Shown here piece after piece: positions 486 to 7,600 of a DNA stretch of 7,600 bases (positions are counted from its first letter, which is position 1; the number at the start of each line of letters is the position of its first letter). The DNA is taken from positions 1-7,600 of the forward strand of contig DAXF01000038.1 in NCBI GenBank assembly GCA_002506255.1, read 5' to 3'. Position numbers and translations under genes: made by a program. Source of the DNA: Methanomassiliicoccaceae archaeon UBA367. GTDB taxonomy: Archaea > Thermoplasmatota > Thermoplasmata > Methanomassiliicoccales > Methanomethylophilaceae. A model generated the notes under the pieces. That model was given only the letters and a program-made list of their open reading frames with translations. It searched no databases and was not told the DNA's origin.

Positions 486-1847
486 TCATGGTGTAAGGAT
501 AACGGTCTTCTCCGTGAGATACTGCTCCAGAGCATCGAGACCGTTCTCACGGCCGATGCCGCTGTCCTTAGTACCGCCGAACGGCACTTCCGGTGGTATC
601 CTGAGATGGCGATTGATCCAGATGATGCCGGAATCTATCCTCTCCACGGCCTCATAGGCCGCATCCAGGTCCTTGGTCCATATCGATGCACCGAGCCCGA
701 ATTTGGAATCATTCGCCATATCTATAGCCCCATCCAAGTTCTCGAACCTCATGATCGGCAGCACAGGACCGAACACTTCCTCTGTCAGCAGTCTGCTCTT
801 CGGTTCCGGGTCAAGGACCAGCGTCGGCCGGTAGAAATTACCAGGACCACCTAGTCTGGAGCCGCCGGCGATTATCTTCCCGTGACTTCCGATACTCTGA
901 ACGAAACTCTCCATATCCTTCAGCCCGGAAGCGCTGCTCAGAGGGCCCATCTGCGTTCCTCCGACCGCACCGTCCCCTACGATCAGCGATTCCGCACCCG
1001 CCCTGAGCCTGGATACGAACTCATCGGCGATGCTGTCAGCTACGAAAAGCCTCTTGACGGCGGCGCACGTCTGACCGCAGTTGAAGAACCTCCCGGATAT
1101 CGCGCCCGCTACAGCCCGGTCCATATCGGCATCCCCGCACACGATCATGGGATCGCTCCCTCCCAGTTCCAGAGTCAGGCGTGTCCTTCCGGGATCGATC
1201 ATCCTTGCGATCCTTCCCCCCGTATCAACGGACCCGGTGAACGAGAGATGTCTGATCCTCTCGTCACGCGCTATGGCAGCACCTGCGATGCTGCCATTCC
1301 CGGTGACCACGGCGAGGGTGTCCCGAGGAAGCCCCGCACTGAAAAGCGCATCGGCGATCCCGATGTTCGTGAGGGGCGTGGCGGAAGCCGTCTTCAATAT
1401 CACCGTGTTGCCGGTTACCAGTGCCGGGCAGACCTTCCATGCCATTATCAGTGCCGGCATGTTCCACGGGATTATCGCGCCGCATACTCCCAGCGGGCTC
1501 TTCTTCGTGAATGCATAGCCGTAATCCGCCCTCGGCAGAGTACGGCCGCTGATCGTCCCCGCTATGGAAGCGTAGAATTCCATGACCGCTGCGGCCCCCA
1601 GTATCTCATTCCTTGCCTCATGCAGAGGCTTGCCCTGCTCGGCCGTCAGGATCGATGCCAATCTGTCCTTATCCTGTCTCACGATCTCCGCGGCCTTGAA
1701 CATGATCCTGCTTCTTGCCGCGGAACTGCATCCGGACCATCCGGCGAATCCTTTCTCGAGGGTTCCGACGGTATCGTGCACCATCTCCTCTGTGAATTCC
1801 TGCACCTCTCCTATCTTCCTGTTGTTGGCGGGGTTGATAATGTCCAT
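486..1847 (-). CDS. NAD(P)-dependent aldehyde dehydrogenase (succinate-semialdehyde dehydrogenase-like), last gene of the aks-type operon
   Basis: This 453-residue enzyme oxidises an aldehyde to a carboxylic acid using NAD(P)+ in the cytoplasm. The full ALDH catalytic set is present: PWNMP with N129, K152 in VILKTAS, FTGS at 203-206 in the cofactor fold, E227 in LELGG, nucleophile C261 in GQTCAA, and E357 in EEVFGPV. The C-terminal PFGGTKDSGIGRE (422-434) is also typical. The length is slightly short compared with the 455-500 usual for this superfamily, with no missing core. The substrate cannot be read from the sequence; overall it resembles succinate-semialdehyde or lactaldehyde dehydrogenases. 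The ATG at 1845-1847 has a GAGGAGAT ribosome-binding site that overlaps the aksF stop codon, and the gap to aksF is only 12 bases, so it belongs to the aks operon. That context suggests an omega-oxo acid substrate such as 7-oxoheptanoate, made upstream by chain elongation and decarboxylation. This is inference. Confidence 0.93.
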   Translation of the reverse strand: MDIINPANNRKIGEVQEFTEEMVHDTVGTLEKGFAGWSGCSSAARSRIMFKAAEIVRQDKDRLASILTAEQGKPLHEARNEILGAAAVMEFYASIAGTISGRTLPRADYGYAFTKKSPLGVCGAIIPWNMPALIMAWKVCPALVTGNTVILKTASATPLTNIGIADALFSAGLPRDTLAVVTGNGSIAGAAIARDERIRHLSFTGSVDTGGRIARMIDPGRTRLTLELGGSDPMIVCGDADMDRAVAGAISGRFFNCGQTCAAVKRLFVADSIADEFVSRLRAGAESLIVGDGAVGGTQMGPLSSASGLKDMESFVQSIGSHGKIIAGGSRLGGPGNFYRPTLVLDPEPKSRLLTEEVFGPVLPIMRFENLDGAIDMANDSKFGLGASIWTKDLDAAYEAVERIDSGIIWINRHLRIPPEVPFGGTKDSGIGRENGLDALEQYLTEKTVILTP

Positions 1848-1859
1848 GATCTAATCTCC

Positions 1860-2819
1860 TCAGCTGAGCCTGTCCATCAAGGCGTTGGTGAATGATACGG
1901 TATCCGCTGTTCCCCCCAGGTCCTTTGTCTTTATACCTGAAGATATGACTGCGGTTATGGCTTCCTCTATCTCCTCGTAACATCTTATCCCGTTATGCTC
2001 GAGCAGCATGCCCGCGCTCCTCACAGCCGCAATAGGATTGGCGATGCCCCTACCGGCGATATCGGGCGCACTGCCATGCACAGGCTCGAAGAGCGCATGT
2101 CTCTCGCCTATGTTCGCGCTGGGGAGCATCCCCAGTCCGCCAACGAGATGGCCTAAGGCATCGCTGAGTATGTCTCCGAAGAGATTCGTGGTGACTATCA
2201 CATCGTACCGTTGAGGATTCTGTATGGCATCGAAGGTCAGGGCATCTATGTATGCCGTTCTGTAAGGAACTCCCATTTCCTCAGCTACTCTTATGCATGT
2301 ATCGCGGAAGAGCACATCCGACTTCATGACATTGGCTTTGTTCCCTATGGTCAGGGTTCCGTTCTCAAAATCTTTCAATAATACGCCGCATGCGCATCTT
2401 GCGATGCGCTCGCTCGCTTTCTTTGTGACCACCCGAAGGGTCGTGGACCTTTCCTCGCCTATCTCCTCTATCCCGGAATACAGGCCCTCAGAATTCTCGC
2501 GCACCACCATTATATTGAAGTCTTCCCCGTGCACCGGTCTGAGATTGGCATAAAGACCCAGGTCCTTTCTTATTTTCAGCATGACGCTCTTGTACTTCGG
2601 GTCCGGAGGAGTGGTTATGGCGCCGAAGAGGATCGAGTCTGCCTTTCTGAGGGATTCGATATCCCCGTCATCGCATCCGGTCCCGCACCTCTCCCATTTG
2701 CCGTATCCGATCTCCACTTCGAAGTATTCGGAATCGGGCGCATAGTGCTCAAGGACCCTGACGGCCTGAGGTATCACCTCTTTGCCTATGCCGTCGCCCC
2801 TGACCACGGCGATCTTCAT
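1860..2819 (-). CDS. aksF: Homoisocitrate dehydrogenase (AksF-type beta-decarboxylating dehydrogenase)
   Basis: This 319-residue enzyme catalyses the NAD(P)+-dependent oxidative decarboxylation of (homo)n-isocitrate to the lengthened 2-oxoacid, the last step of each elongation cycle. It belongs to the isocitrate/isopropylmalate dehydrogenase family: GDGIGKEVI at 8-16; substrate arginines R84, R94 and R107 (IRKDLGLYANLRP and RENSEGLY, with Y114); lysine K161 in KANVMK; metal-binding aspartates D192, D216 and D220 (FGDILSDALG); and LFEPVHGSAPDIAG at 243-256 for the cofactor. The PKYKSVMLKIRK stretch before the arginines resembles AksF and homoisocitrate dehydrogenases (YKSP.. or YRGA..) more than LeuB. 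The small size also fits AksF. The ATG overlaps the aksE stop as ATGA and has a GGGAG ribosome-binding site. The nearest alternative is 3-isopropylmalate dehydrogenase (LeuB); the neighbours and the homoaconitase motif in AksE favour AksF. Confidence 0.85.
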   Translation of the reverse strand: MKIAVVRGDGIGKEVIPQAVRVLEHYAPDSEYFEVEIGYGKWERCGTGCDDGDIESLRKADSILFGAITTPPDPKYKSVMLKIRKDLGLYANLRPVHGEDFNIMVVRENSEGLYSGIEEIGEERSTTLRVVTKKASERIARCACGVLLKDFENGTLTIGNKANVMKSDVLFRDTCIRVAEEMGVPYRTAYIDALTFDAIQNPQRYDVIVTTNLFGDILSDALGHLVGGLGMLPSANIGERHALFEPVHGSAPDIAGRGIANPIAAVRSAGMLLEHNGIRCYEEIEEAITAVISSGIKTKDLGGTADTVSFTNALMDRLS

Positions 2820-3286
2820 TTCTCCCTTCTCCTAAGCTCTATGATGCCGCCCGCATCTATTATCTCCTTCATCTTGTCAGACAGTTTCAGCGCCCGGTAT
2901 CTGCGTCCGTCGATCTCCACGGACGATTCCTCAAGGGAGATCGAGATCCCGTCACCGTCTTCGCATGTGAAGCCTTCCGGTATCTCGAACATGGGTATGC
3001 CCCGGTTGATGGCATTCCTGAAGAATATCCTGGCGAAGCTCTCTGCGACCACCGCGATGACACCCGCCTCCTTGAGCGCCATGGCCGCCTGCTCCCGAGA
3101 TGAGCCGCACCCCATGTTCTTTCCAGCTACGATTACACTGCCCTTCAGGCGGGAGGCCAGGCTCGGATCGAGATCCTCGAATGCATGCTCGGCCCAGACG
3201 GATTTGTCTTTAGTTCTGAGATATCTGCCGGCGATTATCTGATCCGTATCGACATCGTCGCCGAGCCTTATCGCGACGCCTTTCAT
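2816..3286 (-). CDS. aksE: Homoaconitase small subunit
   Basis: This 156-residue small subunit forms the swivel domain of a two-subunit aconitase-family hydro-lyase and pairs with the gene immediately upstream. It converts (homo)n-citrate to (homo)n-isocitrate through the unsaturated intermediate. The family signature is clear: DDVDTDQII at 10-18, GCGSSREQA at 59-67 with R64, and AESFARIFFRNAINRGIP at 81-98. The specificity loop reads YLRT (residues 22-25). From established work on Methanocaldococcus jannaschii, YLRT marks homoaconitase small subunits, whereas isopropylmalate isomerase small subunits carry a different, non-Arg version of this loop. The loop arginine contacts the distal carboxylate of the longer substrates. 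This is the best single piece of evidence that the operon makes dicarboxylic 2-oxoacids and not leucine. The start ATG overlaps the aksD stop (ATGA), with a G-rich Shine-Dalgarno upstream, so the subunits are translationally coupled. Confidence 0.9.
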   Translation of the reverse strand: MKGVAIRLGDDVDTDQIIAGRYLRTKDKSVWAEHAFEDLDPSLASRLKGSVIVAGKNMGCGSSREQAAMALKEAGVIAVVAESFARIFFRNAINRGIPMFEIPEGFTCEDGDGISISLEESSVEIDGRRYRALKLSDKMKEIIDAGGIIELRRREK

Positions 3287-4491
3287 TGAAGGTCCCCCGG
3301 TAAGGCTATCTCTCCCTTCAATGCGGAGAATGCCGCGGTGGTAGGCGACGAAAGGAAATACTTAGCGCCCACGCCCATGCGGTTCTTGAAATTCCTGTTG
3401 GCAGTGGATAGCCCTGTCTCACCTTCTCCCAGAACACCTTGATGCGCTCCGAGGCAGGGGCCGCATCCGGGGTTGCCGATTACGGCCCCGGACTCTATGA
3501 TATCTCTCAGAATGCCCGTATCCACTGCTCTGAGGAGAACAGCCCGTGAGGCGGGGACCACGATCGTCCTTACCTTCACCTTCTTCCCCCTCACGATGTC
3601 CGCGAAGCGTTTCAGGTCTCCGTATCTGCCGTTCGTGCATGTACCTACGAATACCTGGTCCAACGGAGTCCCTTCGAAATCGGATACAGGTCTGACATCA
3701 TCCACTCTGTGAGGCACCGCGAGCAGAGGTTCCATATCATCAAGCTGTATGATCTCCTCTCTTACGTAATCGCAATCCTCCCTTTTCTGCGGGGTTGCGT
3801 TCCTTCCGTGGTTTCGAAGATATCTGCAGGTAACGTCGTCAGCGTAGAACAGCCCTGCCTTCGCACCTGATTCCACGGACATGTTGGATATGGTCAGCCT
3901 GTCATCCATCCCAAGGTCGTTGTCGCCCGTGAACTCTATTGCCTTGTAGGTCGCCCCTCCGGCCCCCAACAAACCTACGTAACGGAGGGCCGCGTCCTTC
4001 GCCTCAACGTATCTGGGAAGCTCACCCTCTAGTCTGATGTTGATGGTCTCCGGTATCTTGAACCAGGTATCGCCGGTGGCCCAGATCGATGCCATGTCGG
4101 ATGCCCCGACCCCTGTGGCGAAGGCTCCGAAAGCGCCCATGGTACAGGTGTGCGAATCCGCCCCCACGACGATCTCGCCCGGAGTGACGATGCCCTCGCT
4201 CATCACCTGATGGCATATCCCCTCGCCGATATCATGCAGATCTATACCACTATCGAGGGCGAATCTTCTCAGCTCGGCCTGCAGATCCGCCGTAGTGGAA
4301 TTGTTGGCCGGCACTATGTGATCGTAGACTATCGATATCCTGTCCGGTCTCGATACTATGCCGATGCCCATCTCCCTGAATGCCATCAGGGCCTGGACGC
4401 CCGTCCCGTCATGTGCCAGAGCGCGGTCCACAGCCACATCGACGAAGCTTCCCGCGTCGCCCTTCAGTATCTTCTCGGATAATGTGCTCAA
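3283..4491 (-). CDS. aksD: Homoaconitase large subunit, [4Fe-4S] hydro-lyase
   Basis: This 402-residue catalytic subunit of an aconitase-family enzyme works with AksE on homocitrate and its longer homologues. The iron-sulfur ligands are C285 (VGTCTNGR) and the C343/C346 pair in NPGCGPCLGAHQGVL. Other hallmarks are YDHIVPANN at 56-64, GADSHTCTMGAFGAFATGVG at 110-129, KIPETI at 145-150, and STANRNFKNRMG at 362-373. The length matches the archaeal two-subunit form of about 400-430 residues. The start is a TTG (4489-4491) directly abutting the aksA TGA. No ATG or GTG start in this frame lies between that stop and the conserved N-terminal STLSEKIL, so TTG is the best choice; a GGGGG element lies 9 bases upstream. 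The large subunit alone cannot separate homoaconitase from isopropylmalate isomerase; that call rests on the small subunit and the operon. Confidence 0.9.
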   Translation of the reverse strand: MSTLSEKILKGDAGSFVDVAVDRALAHDGTGVQALMAFREMGIGIVSRPDRISIVYDHIVPANNSTTADLQAELRRFALDSGIDLHDIGEGICHQVMSEGIVTPGEIVVGADSHTCTMGAFGAFATGVGASDMASIWATGDTWFKIPETINIRLEGELPRYVEAKDAALRYVGLLGAGGATYKAIEFTGDNDLGMDDRLTISNMSVESGAKAGLFYADDVTCRYLRNHGRNATPQKREDCDYVREEIIQLDDMEPLLAVPHRVDDVRPVSDFEGTPLDQVFVGTCTNGRYGDLKRFADIVRGKKVKVRTIVVPASRAVLLRAVDTGILRDIIESGAVIGNPGCGPCLGAHQGVLGEGETGLSTANRNFKNRMGVGAKYFLSSPTTAAFSALKGEIALPGDLQ

Positions 4492-5616
4492 TCACTTCGT
4501 CCCCCTGGCATTGCGAATGAGCTCCTTGAGAACATCAGAGGTTATGGCGCATTTCCCCTCGCTTCTCTCTTTTACATCATGCAGGACCCTATCTATCTGA
4601 GAATCATCGAGCTCGCACCCGAAGGTTCTGGCTATGTGCTCCAGGGCTCTTCTTCCGGTGTGCTTCCCCAACACGAACCTCTGTTCGCCGCCCACCATCT
4701 TCGGTGGGAAGTATTCGTAGGTATTGCTGTCGACCAGCAACGCTGCGATATGTATGCCGCTCTCATGGGAGAATGCATTGTCGCCCACCACAGCCTTGGT
4801 CCTGGAGACAGAAAGGCCGGAGTACTTGGAGACCATTTTGGAAAGGCCAGTAAGATGTGTCAGATCATATCTGTCCACTCCGCCCTTCATCCTCAGCGCC
4901 ACTAAGAGCTCCTCAAGGCTCGCATTGCCTGCACGTTCGCCTATCCCGTTCACGGTGGTGTGGAGCTGGAATGCTCCGCATTCGGCTGCGGTGAAAGCGT
5001 TGGCGGTGGCCATTCCCATGTCGTTATGGAAATGCACGCATAGTCTGTTCTTCAGGTCCTTTGTCAGCTCTCTGACCATGTCGGCGGTTTGCAGGGGAGT
5101 GAGGCAACCCACTGTATCAGCCAGGCTGCTGTACGTGGCCTTGTGCTCGTATCCCTGTCTGAACATCTCCTTCAGGAATGAGATATCGGTCCTTGAACCG
5201 TCTTCGGCCGAGAATCTGACCTGCAACCCGTGATCCACCGCGTGATCCACCGCAGCCAGCGCCTGTGCGAGCATCTCCTCTCTTGTCTTCTTGTATTTGA
5301 CCTTTATATGCAGGTCGGATGTGGCGAAGAAGATGCTCACCAGATCCACGTCGCAGCCTATGGCCGCATCCACGTCGGATATGATCGATCTGGAGAGGCA
5401 GCATATGCGGGCATCCAGTCCGGCGTGGGAGATTTTCTTTATGCATTCTCTCTCGCTATCGCTGACGCTGGGGAATCCCGCTTCGATCACCTCAATGCCT
5501 ATTGCGTCAAGACTGTGGGCGATGTCAAGTTTCTCCTGACACGTGAATGATACCCCGGGAGTCTGCTCCCCGTCTCTGAGTGTTACATCGCATATCTCAA
5601 TATCTAATGATTTCAT
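4492..5616 (-). CDS. aksA: Homocitrate synthase family, AksA-type 2-oxoacid elongating synthase
   Basis: This enzyme condenses acetyl-CoA with 2-oxoglutarate (and, for AksA, with longer 2-oxodicarboxylates) to give homocitrate and its homologues, opening each elongation cycle. Numbering here is from the first possible Met (ATG 5623-5625, 377 residues). The DRE-TIM barrel motif TLRDGEQTPGV spans 15-25, EDGSRTD 141-147, the metal-binding HFHND 198-202 (H198, H200), TTVNGIGERAGN 223-234, HESGIH 287-292 and GKHTGR 320-325. The C-terminal allosteric LeuA domain is absent, as in AksA and NifV and unlike leucine-regulated isopropylmalate synthases. Start: a GGAGG (5626-5630) touches the first ATG with no spacing but lies 9 bases from the second (5614-5616), so the second is preferred (374 residues). 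The gene overlaps the upstream TPP gene by about 20 bases. Isopropylmalate or citramalate synthase are the alternatives, less favoured by context. Confidence 0.87.
   Translation of the reverse strand: MKSLDIEICDVTLRDGEQTPGVSFTCQEKLDIAHSLDAIGIEVIEAGFPSVSDSERECIKKISHAGLDARICCLSRSIISDVDAAIGCDVDLVSIFFATSDLHIKVKYKKTREEMLAQALAAVDHAVDHGLQVRFSAEDGSRTDISFLKEMFRQGYEHKATYSSLADTVGCLTPLQTADMVRELTKDLKNRLCVHFHNDMGMATANAFTAAECGAFQLHTTVNGIGERAGNASLEELLVALRMKGGVDRYDLTHLTGLSKMVSKYSGLSVSRTKAVVGDNAFSHESGIHIAALLVDSNTYEYFPPKMVGGEQRFVLGKHTGRRALEHIARTFGCELDDSQIDRVLHDVKERSEGKCAITSDVLKELIRNARGTK
5229..5252. repeat. 12-base tandem duplication inside aksA
   Basis: CGTGATCCACCG occurs twice in direct tandem. On the coding strand it encodes the repeated VDHA/VDHG at residues 126-133 of AksA. 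The reading frame is kept, and the repeat lies in a surface-type helix ahead of the EDGSRTD motif. Confidence 0.7.
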
Positions 5617-6664
5617 GTTTTTCATCCTCCGGACACTTTGCTTCGAAAATGAATGTGATAGGTCTGGTGACTGGCTCTTTGAGAACTCTCAAATCGTCTA
5701 ATTCCCGCGGGTCCGCCCATTGTATGTATTTCGCAACATCAGCTATATCCCCGCCCGTCATCCCCATCCTGCAGTTCTTCAGCACGATCGTTAGAAGAGG
5801 CAGCCTCTTCTCGTATACGTCTGCCAGGGCATTCATGCCAGAATGCAACAATGCGTAATCCCCGGTTATCGCTATACCGACGGAACGTGCGGCGACGGCA
5901 ATGGAGGACCCCAATCCGTAATTCGCCATTCCTATGCTATAAGGGTCCTTCATAGCCAGTAAGACACAACCGGTATCCAATATGACATCTATCTTCTCTT
6001 TGGAGATATACTCGAGCAGAGGCTTGTAGGGGCAGTTCTTGCAGAATGTCTTGCTGTATCCCTTGCTTTGGAAGGTCTCCGGTTCTTTATATTCCCCTTT
6101 GAGAAGATTGTCCGCATGTTCGGAACGGCCCTTCATGGTGAGGTCCCTGTCTGTCAGCCTTCCGTATCCCCTGGCCTTCGATACTGCGGGGATACGCCGG
6201 TCGCCGATCACCTTTCTCAGCTGTAGATCGGTCACTCTCAGGAGTGCCACTCTTGAATATCTCTCTGATTCTTCGAATGCTTTCTCAAGGCTGCCGTAGG
6301 CATCTCCTGTGCACAATTCAATCAAGGGAATCGAGGCCACTTCCGAGTAAGGCCGGGTATCCTGGCGGTTCTGCGAGCCCTCTGCCGTGGTATCATCGCC
6401 TGATATCAGGACCACACCCCCGATCAAACCCTGGGTGGTGGCATTCACCAGCGGGTCCGCGAGAGCGTTTACACCCACGTTCTTCACGATCACAACGGAT
6501 CTTTTACCCGTCAGGGAATCGCCCAACGCATACTCCATGGCTGTTTTCTCGTTGATGGCGAAGACAGCATCAGAATACTCGGCAAGCTCGGTTATGGGAT
6601 ATCCTGGCACAGAATACGATGTGTCGCTCAGCGCTCTTATGCAATCGGCCAATAATCTTCTCAT
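5597..6664 (-). CDS. Short IorA-like thiamine pyrophosphate enzyme, candidate 2-oxoacid decarboxylase
   Basis: This 355-residue TPP-dependent enzyme resembles the alpha subunit of indolepyruvate ferredoxin oxidoreductase (IorA) but is much shorter. Residues 1-150 form the Pyr domain: PGYPITELAEY (20-30), NEK with E39 as the probable TPP-activating glutamate, KNVGVNALADPL (61-72) and SQNRQDTR (97-104). A linker of about 55 residues leads to the PP domain (about 205-345): CKNCPYKP (C208, C211), DTGCVLL, GLGSSIAVA, and the Mg-TPP motif GD(269)Y...N(297). IorA proteins have about 600 residues, with an extra middle domain and a C-terminal ferredoxin domain with two 4Fe-4S cysteine clusters; both are missing, and no iron-sulfur motif is seen. 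This favours non-oxidative decarboxylation over CoA-acylating oxidation. It is the first gene of the operon and overlaps aksA. Upstream of the ATG at 6662-6664, no alternative ATG, GTG or TTG start precedes an in-frame TGA, so the start is firm. The substrate is unknown; 2-oxosuberate or another elongated 2-oxoacid is inferred from context. Confidence 0.85.
   Translation of the reverse strand: MRRLLADCIRALSDTSYSVPGYPITELAEYSDAVFAINEKTAMEYALGDSLTGKRSVVIVKNVGVNALADPLVNATTQGLIGGVVLISGDDTTAEGSQNRQDTRPYSEVASIPLIELCTGDAYGSLEKAFEESERYSRVALLRVTDLQLRKVIGDRRIPAVSKARGYGRLTDRDLTMKGRSEHADNLLKGEYKEPETFQSKGYSKTFCKNCPYKPLLEYISKEKIDVILDTGCVLLAMKDPYSIGMANYGLGSSIAVAARSVGIAITGDYALLHSGMNALADVYEKRLPLLTIVLKNCRMGMTGGDIADVAKYIQWADPRELDDLRVLKEPVTRPITFIFEAKCPEDEKHEIIRY
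5626..5630 (-). promoter_or_regulatory. Ribosome-binding site deciding the aksA start
   Basis: A perfect GGAGG on the minus strand lies inside the 3' end of the upstream TPP gene. It is 9 bases before the second candidate ATG (5614-5616) and immediately against the first (5623-5625), so the second ATG is the more workable start. Confidence 0.7.
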
Positions 6665-6752: not shown

Positions 6753-7600
6753 TCAAGAGACCTCATCCGCCGTCGCTGCAGCTCTGTCGTCCGAGATCTT
6801 CAGCAGGAACACCAAGACAAAAGCCGCAGCGCACGCGATCGCAGATATGACGAACGCAGGAGTGAGGTCCGAGTCCGAAACCAAAGTGGACAGGAACGGG
6901 AACAGCAACGCAGAGGCCCCGAATCCCAGGGTCACCATGCCGTAGTTCGTTCCCATATACTTGGTGCCGAAGTGGTCCGCCGTCACCGCTGCGAATGTGC
7001 CAGAAGCACCTCCGAAAGCCAGGGATATCAGAGCGACGCACACCAGGAAGAGGATTCCGTGTGCGAAGATCATGGCGAGCACACCCACGGCGGTCATGAG
7101 TATTATCAGGAACAGGGCCTGTGTGCGCCCTATCCTGTCGGACAACCACGTTATCAGAAGGCGCCCGGATGCGCTGAACAGGCCTGTGATAATGACTCCG
7201 GAGACCGCGTAGCTTCCGAGCCCTCTTTCTGCGGCAAGGGTGACAAGATGGGGATTCAGCACGAAGAATGCCGGGAGGGTGAAGAACATCGCGAGGGTGA
7301 TGAGGTGGAATGTGCGCATCCTCAGCACCTCTCTCGGCATATACTGCCTCTGTTCCATGTTCCTTTTAGCTGTTATGCCTGGCACAGTATATCCTGCGGG
7401 GGGATTCCTGAGCACCATGGACGCGGCCACGCAGATGATCATAAATGATATACCTAGTATCATGAAGGTCTCAGGAACACCCACATCCTCCAGGAGGAAG
7501 TTGGCCAGAGGGGAGAATATCACCAACGAGAAACCGAAGGACCCCACCATGGCGCCTGTGGCGAAACCGCGTCTGTCAGGGAACCATTTCTGCACGCAGG
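6753..7600 (-). CDS. MFS transporter, oxalate/formate antiporter (OFA)-like, C-terminal part (partial)
   Basis: The reading frame stays open to the right edge; about 281 residues are visible and the N-terminus (about TM1-4) is missing. The visible start CVQKWFPDRRGFATG matches the loop and TM5 signature (W-F-P-x-R-R-G) of the OFA group of major facilitator proteins, which exchange or carry small mono- and dicarboxylates. Eight hydrophobic segments follow, consistent with TM5-12, counted from the V of VQKWF: about 11-33, 43-62, 95-117, 131-150, 158-178, 180-203, 216-238 and 246-266. A central hydrophilic loop lies at 63-94, and an MFS motif-A copy (SDRIGR) at 152-157 joins TM8 and TM9. The short cytoplasmic tail ends in TADEVS. 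An apparent GTG start at 7593-7595 is internal and not the real start. The gene is on the same strand as the operon, 88 bases ahead of it, so it may be co-expressed. The substrate cannot be told from this fragment. Confidence 0.85.
   Translation of the reverse strand, partial: CVQKWFPDRRGFATGAMVGSFGFSLVIFSPLANFLLEDVGVPETFMILGISFMIICVAASMVLRNPPAGYTVPGITAKRNMEQRQYMPREVLRMRTFHLITLAMFFTLPAFFVLNPHLVTLAAERGLGSYAVSGVIITGLFSASGRLLITWLSDRIGRTQALFLIILMTAVGVLAMIFAHGILFLVCVALISLAFGGASGTFAAVTADHFGTKYMGTNYGMVTLGFGASALLFPFLSTLVSDSDLTPAFVISAIACAAAFVLVFLLKISDDRAAATADEVS

Follow-up and report, generated by a model that had tools for sequence, protein, structure and literature searches.

What reaction does a thiamine diphosphate (ThDP) enzyme contribute when its gene heads a complete set of 2-oxoacid chain-extension genes, and what does an aldehyde dehydrogenase (ALDH) add at the other end of the same transcription unit? 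The question is posed by a 7,600-nucleotide stretch of DNA (the window; positions 1 to 7,600 of contig DAXF01000038.1, assembly GCA_002506255.1) from Methanomassiliicoccaceae archaeon UBA367, in which genes for a ThDP enzyme, AksA, AksD, AksE, AksF and an ALDH follow one another. The original prediction, made from the DNA sequence, was that AksA, AksD/E and AksF extend 2-oxoglutarate, that the ThDP enzyme removes the 1-carboxylate and that the ALDH oxidises the resulting omega-oxo acid to a dicarboxylate, with pimelate as a source of biotin. The unit is probably better explained as an operon for coenzyme B (CoB) biosynthesis, in which a ThDP enzyme derived from IorA decarboxylates 2-oxosuberate and the ALDH is an accessory.

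Methane-forming archaea depend on CoB, and the chain-extension enzymes of its synthesis are known; past 2-oxosuberate, the route is expected to call for a decarboxylation. If they act like their homologues in the known pathway, AksA, AksDE and AksF would convert 2-oxoglutarate to 2-oxosuberate in three rounds. The ThDP enzyme would then take the 1-carboxylate from 2-oxosuberate to give 7-oxoheptanoate, which would serve as the precursor of 7-mercaptoheptanoate, and the ALDH might, at a guess, oxidise omega-oxo acids that escape when C5-C7 2-oxo acids are decarboxylated too soon. What the ThDP enzyme acts on, which reaction it catalyses and what the ALDH does are what we infer; chain extension and decarboxylation within CoB synthesis are well supported by context. 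A CoB decarboxylase is also a simpler conclusion than a dicarboxylate, and one that the original prediction, which did mention CoB, did not draw.

In its passage on the CoB route, a 2011 account proceeds via 2-oxosuberate and 'suberate semialdehyde' and names enzymes for chain extension only (PMC3087415). In the open-licence papers covered, no gene was found to be assigned to 2-oxosuberate decarboxylation or to the sulfur steps of CoB synthesis, nor was this gene group described, a gap that constitutes weak evidence of novelty. The locus and its relatives in the Methanomicrobiales provide specific, testable candidates for these decarboxylation and sulfur steps.

Gene order and chain extension

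Six open reading frames are confirmed at positions 486 to 6,664, all on the minus strand and in one tight unit: from the ThDP gene to aksF, adjacent genes overlap by 29, 0, 4 and 4 bases, and 12 bases separate aksF from the ALDH gene. Pfam and NCBIfam searches are consistent with all six family names, and the predicted six-gene unit is thus borne out by reading-frame positions and domain matches (Table 1). The nearest relatives are Methanomassiliicoccales, the ThDP protein being 88 percent identical to its homologues in Methanomassiliicoccales archaeon RumEn M2 and UBA381. (Genome-wide statements here concern relatives rather than the window's own genome, and the 147 genomes referred to below are those of the order of RumEn M2.) Published accounts place genes for making coenzyme M and CoB in three Methanomassiliicoccales genomes (Borrel et al., PMC4153887) and describe RumEn M2 as living by methyl-reducing methanogenesis (PMC10658910).

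Conservation of the six-gene order in relatives had been proposed as a check. The order ThDP-aksA-aksD-aksE-aksF-ALDH is retained in all eight Methanomassiliicoccales loci with complete context (L040, L042-L045, L047-L049), and per-gene identities across related six-gene loci range from 59.6 to 97 percent; since the same six genes stand in the same order in every one of these eight, the arrangement is not due to chance. In a ninth locus (L041) the contig breaks off once aksE has begun; L004, a contig from the Methanomicrobiaceae, ends after the first three operon genes. Nine of the 147 genomes carry the ThDP protein (60-88 percent identity) and the same nine carry the operon's AksA (80-97 percent); a tenth genome, G012, carries on a 4.9-kb contig a ThDP fragment that is less similar (42-48 percent identity).

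The association extends to the Methanomicrobiales, for which 20 loci (L070-L089) were fetched, as were 14 loci of an approximately 500-amino-acid ThDP homologue from other Halobacteriota; both sets are hand-picked, mostly from large contigs, and non-random. The order ThDP-aksA-aksD-aksE, followed by aksF, is found in 20/20 of the Methanomicrobiales loci. Across 120 Methanomicrobiales genomes the ThDP gene and aksA are jointly present or absent in 117 (102 with both, 15 with neither), at E-value limits (1e-50 for ThDP, 1e-135 for AksA) that were set after the match lists had been viewed and that score the 51-percent AksA of G172 as absent. The Fisher p of 5e-16 for this co-occurrence assumes an independence between genomes that does not hold. 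The three discordant genomes all have truncated contigs: in the two with the ThDP gene only (G174, G240) the contig ends inside that gene, preceded by a methanogenesis marker 11 gene and a radical-SAM gene, and in the one with aksA only (G238) it stops at aksA. The predicted link of the ThDP enzyme to chain extension holds up well in these data. A lack of conservation of the flanking genes beside aks genes had been named as grounds for abandoning the prediction; the ThDP gene is so conserved, but outside the window's lineage the ALDH gene largely is not.

Homologues of AksA, AksD, AksE and AksF are all present together in the window, as in the methanogen Aks pathway, from which the operon differs in including an IorA-like ThDP enzyme. 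The loop that sets specificity for carboxylated substrates is YLRT in AksE, as it is in the homoaconitase small subunit 2pkp (presumably the M. jannaschii protein); the isopropylmalate/citramalate isomerase 3vba has RYLVYT at that place. Among 34 AksE sequences, the window's included, 33 have YLRT and one (L178) has YLRS. Because AksE keeps this loop and AksF is nearest to homoisocitrate dehydrogenases, the set is most likely, on sequence grounds, the chain-extension set of CoB synthesis, much as had been predicted. That these genes serve leucine, isoleucine or lysine synthesis instead is extremely improbable: the families are indeed homologous to LeuA/C/D/B, but the AksE loop and the affinities of AksF point elsewhere, and the relatives have further HMGL proteins (frames of about 520-550 amino acids) that are LeuA- and CimA-like, as judged by length and score only.

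The AksA phylogeny bears on the origin of the operon. Eleven rows were marked for removal beforehand as duplicates, as near-identical or, in one case, as a fragment, and the program warned of long branches (the CimA-like L119, L142, L170 and L177). AksA of the window and its relatives nests within the Methanomicrobiales, at a starred fork (97/91, 18 rows) within which finer placement is loose, and sits away from the other AksA-like proteins of the window's own order. Lateral transfer of the operon from the Methanomicrobiales into a lineage of the Methanomassiliicoccales is the simplest account of this position, and a likely one. A second close AksA was not found in the operon-carrying relatives. 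A third HMGL protein of operon genomes (L130-L134; 393-412 amino acids) falls together with the other AksA-like proteins of the order (97/89), but the great length of its branch (2 changes per site) makes it unlikely to be an ordinary AksA; a Re-type citrate synthase would be one guess.

The ThDP enzyme and its four cysteines

The ThDP protein has the fold of two ThDP-binding domains found in ThDP-dependent 2-oxo acid decarboxylases. It shares with IorA both ThDP-binding halves, the glutamate and the GD...N motif, and four cysteines (Cys208, 211, 233 and 344), which are invariant in 18 aligned proteins of the family and again in a joint alignment of eight family members, 12 of the 500-amino-acid relatives (from 12 of the 14 loci, L182 and L183 having been left out) and six IorA proteins. 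In 2-oxoacid:ferredoxin oxidoreductases, cysteines of this kind bind a [4Fe-4S] cluster. The differences from IorA are also considerable. At 355 amino acids (roughly 355-425 in the family) the window's protein is much shorter than IorA (about 605); it is without IorA's C-terminal ferredoxin domain (2x[4Fe-4S]); IorA has a partner subunit, for which there is no gene among the six of the operon; and its score with the NCBIfam equivalog IOR_alpha is 118 bits against a cut-off of 651.

NCBIfam includes, to our knowledge, models for ComD and ComE (sulfopyruvate decarboxylase), and no match to either was found for the ThDP protein, IOR_alpha being the sole NCBIfam model reported at E 0.001. ComDE offers a parallel from the synthesis of another methanogen coenzyme, being likewise a ThDP enzyme that decarboxylates a short 2-oxo acid (PMC3787637). 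A phmmer search of the PDB with the ThDP protein gave no match, and a profile search matched oxalyl-CoA decarboxylase only. Fold look-ups yield decarboxylases, lyases and synthases; the best 50 matches listed in each of two look-ups include no 2-oxoacid:ferredoxin oxidoreductase, which excludes nothing.

These features bear on a different chemistry, in which the ThDP enzyme is an IorA-like oxidoreductase that decarboxylates 2-oxosuberate oxidatively, with electrons passing to an iron-sulfur cluster, or whose cluster delivers electrons or sulfur toward the thiol. The four invariant cysteines, common to the family, the 500-amino-acid relatives and the IorA proteins, are what speaks for it; the missing ferredoxin domain, the want of an IorB or gamma-subunit gene in the operon and the tenor of the fold look-ups (inconclusive as these last are) make it unlikely, though it deserves more attention than the other alternatives considered here.

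The aldehyde dehydrogenase and the product

The ALDH gene occupies the same place in all eight complete Methanomassiliicoccales operons, and the catalytic motifs PWN, ELGG and GQTC are present in the window's protein; its constancy in the window's lineage speaks for some link there. In the Methanomicrobiales, the best ALDH match of each genome lies directly downstream of aksF in only four of 120 genomes (G155, G161, G173, G223), and in two others (G149, G179) some 17 kb separate it from the ThDP gene; it is also present in G235 and G239, which have neither the ThDP gene nor aksA. Since most ThDP-aks groups are without an ALDH and these two genomes have an ALDH without them, the pathway in the Methanomicrobiales cannot have the ALDH as its regular next enzyme.

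The predicted dicarboxylate product loses its footing here. Pimelate for biotin fares no better. White reportedly suggested that 2-oxosuberate might also feed biotin, and a C7 dicarboxylate could in principle arise from the same intermediates for the BioW/F/A/D/B pathway, but bioB is above cut-off in none of the 147 genomes of the window's order (searched for bioB, not for bioW, bioF, bioA or bioD). With the same search, four of 120 Methanomicrobiales genomes have bioB above cut-off; two of the four possess the ThDP gene and two lack it. (Matches below the cut-off include other radical-SAM proteins, one of them coinciding with a LipS-like gene in G009.) Taken with the fixed place and intact motifs of the ALDH on the one side and its scatter in the Methanomicrobiales on the other, these counts make it very unlikely that the operon produces glutarate, adipate or pimelate, the last feeding biotin, though a dicarboxylate might conceivably be made for some other use. 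An optional neighbour, as the ALDH appears to be, can suggest the wrong product.

The ALDH also resembles models of succinate-semialdehyde dehydrogenase and betaine-aldehyde dehydrogenase, in every case below cut-off. This would suit a side branch of central metabolism, merely sharing the aks operon, in which the ThDP enzyme and the ALDH convert 2-oxoglutarate to succinate semialdehyde and oxidise it. There is little probability of that, however: the ThDP gene accompanies aks genes in both orders, mostly without the ALDH in the Methanomicrobiales, and is absent together with aksA.

Neighbouring genes, natural losses and objections

The surroundings of the Methanomicrobiales loci are also consistent with 2-oxosuberate decarboxylation for CoB. 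Neighbour families were obtained by gene clustering, with clusters named from single members; on this footing all 20 loci contain the methanogenesis marker 11 family (mostly in two copies), and the other recurrent neighbours are a LipS2-like radical-SAM protein (16 loci), HdrC (15), a polyferredoxin (14), Ftr (13) and HdrB (12). For the 500-amino-acid homologue of other Halobacteriota, a marker 11 gene directly precedes in 12 of the 14 fetched loci; in the other two (L178, L179) a radical-SAM gene lies between them, with a further 2.7 kb in L179, and in both of these marker 11, the radical-SAM protein, the 500-amino-acid ThDP protein, aksA/D/E/F and DUF7714 all fall within about 11 kb. A radical-SAM gene occurs in each of the nine operon-bearing genomes of the window's order (37-39 percent identity). 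Marker 11, the LipS-like radical-SAM protein, the IorA-like ThDP enzyme and AksADEF may, tentatively, compose a near-complete CoB assembly line. In it the ThDP enzyme would be a 2-oxosuberate decarboxylase containing an iron-sulfur cluster, and its C7 product would be converted to 7-mercaptoheptanoate with the help of the radical-SAM and marker 11 proteins; we regard this fuller proposal as possible rather than probable.

Genomes that jointly lack the candidate CoB genes look like natural deletion lines. In G235 and G239 (Methanomicrobium-like; loci L166 and L167) HdrBC, Ftr, one marker 11 gene, DUF7714 and the ALDH stand side by side; a second marker 11 gene, the radical-SAM gene, the ThDP gene and aksA-F were not found at that locus, and genome-wide there is no aksA match, no close radical-SAM relative, and ThDP relatives at the IorA level only. 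Both loci resemble the outcome of a deletion that took everything between the second marker 11 gene and aksF, these two included, but spared DUF7714, which stands immediately ahead of the ALDH. The ALDH of G235 has seven matches at 88-96 percent identity, and the two of them that are named are from Methanomicrobium sp. The requirements listed for Methanomicrobium mobile in a review table include CoB and also biotin, isovalerate and 2-methylbutyrate (PMC10658910). Among the 15 Methanomicrobiales genomes without the ThDP gene and aksA, the radical-SAM gene is missing (no match better than 1e-5) in ten; one more, G198, has a partial gene.

Several observations weigh against a 2-oxosuberate decarboxylase serving CoB. 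An iron-sulfur cluster, as suggested by the four cysteines, would be superfluous in a plain decarboxylase. The window's proteins fall short of the strict NCBIfam cut-offs for methanogen Aks proteins (HacA_Meth and AksF2_Meth, as in Table 1, and HacB2_Meth with 146 bits against 230) and exceed those of broader subfamily models only (such as IPMI_arch and LEUD_arch), so that the operon is, on sequence criteria, an Aks-type set by homology and not a member by equivalog models; these models may, at a guess, derive from other orders. In the window's order, 137 of the 147 genomes have no member of the ThDP family (many of these 137 having IorA-type matches only, mostly in frames of IorA length among the matches listed), and dozens of those without it carry another, diverged AksA-like protein. 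It follows that the ThDP enzyme is not required by every maker of CoB and that a substitute must exist. A full aks set lies within 20 kb in only two of the 14 fetched loci of the 500-amino-acid homologue, and two more have AksA in range (L177 whole, L174 cut). Four genomes (G172, G196, G250, G262) keep a full-length radical-SAM gene without the ThDP gene. That G235 and G239 are CoB auxotrophs, lastly, is something that we infer from kinship alone.

DUF7714 (the XcbA family) was entertained as the thiol-forming enzyme of CoB synthesis, a candidacy that is weakened by its retention in G235 and G239 without the ThDP gene and aksA. It is found within or beside the aks group in 20/20 Methanomicrobiales loci (between aksE and aksF in 17, divergently upstream in three) and is located elsewhere in the nine operon-bearing Methanomassiliicoccales genomes. 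Several of its cysteines are invariant among eight aligned Methanomicrobiales sequences. At four Methanomassiliicoccales loci from genomes without the operon (L135, L139, L140, L142) an AksA-like gene adjoins the DUF7714 gene, in surroundings that by eye resemble cysteine-synthesis genes; a LipS-like radical-SAM gene is near the pair in the first three. The Methanomassiliicoccales are known for pyrrolysine, and in three of their genomes (G135:C16, G107:C73, G096:C23) the DUF7714 gene contains a single in-frame TAG.

Table 1. The six genes of the operon, with positions in the window
Gene product	Positions	Strand	Details
ThDP (TPP) enzyme, IorA-derived, candidate 2-oxosuberate decarboxylase	5597..6664	-	355 aa
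AksA-type 2-oxoacid chain-extending synthase, HMGL family	4492..5625	-	377 aa; PF00682 and HCS_D2; nests with Methanomicrobiales operon AksA
AksD, homoaconitase large subunit	3283..4491	-	402 aa, TTG start; IPMI_arch 488 bits (exceeds cut-off); HacA_Meth 434 bits (cut-off 550)
AksE, homoaconitase small subunit with YLRT loop	2816..3286	-	156 aa; best PDB match 2pkp
AksF, homoisocitrate dehydrogenase family	1860..2819	-	319 aa; four best PDB matches homoisocitrate dehydrogenases; AksF2_Meth 308 bits (cut-off 540)
Aldehyde dehydrogenase (ALDH), accessory member	486..1847	-	453 aa; PF00171 489 bits; PWN, ELGG, GQTC motifs

A gene for an MFS transporter (window positions 6753-7595) lies on the same strand 88 bases upstream of the operon and runs off the window; it scores below the cut-offs of L-lactate/oxalate family models. 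Its counterpart is a neighbour in the three closest relatives (83-92 percent identity) and was not found adjoining the operon in more distant ones, and at L186 about 5 kb separate a homologue of it (78 percent identity) from the radical-SAM gene.

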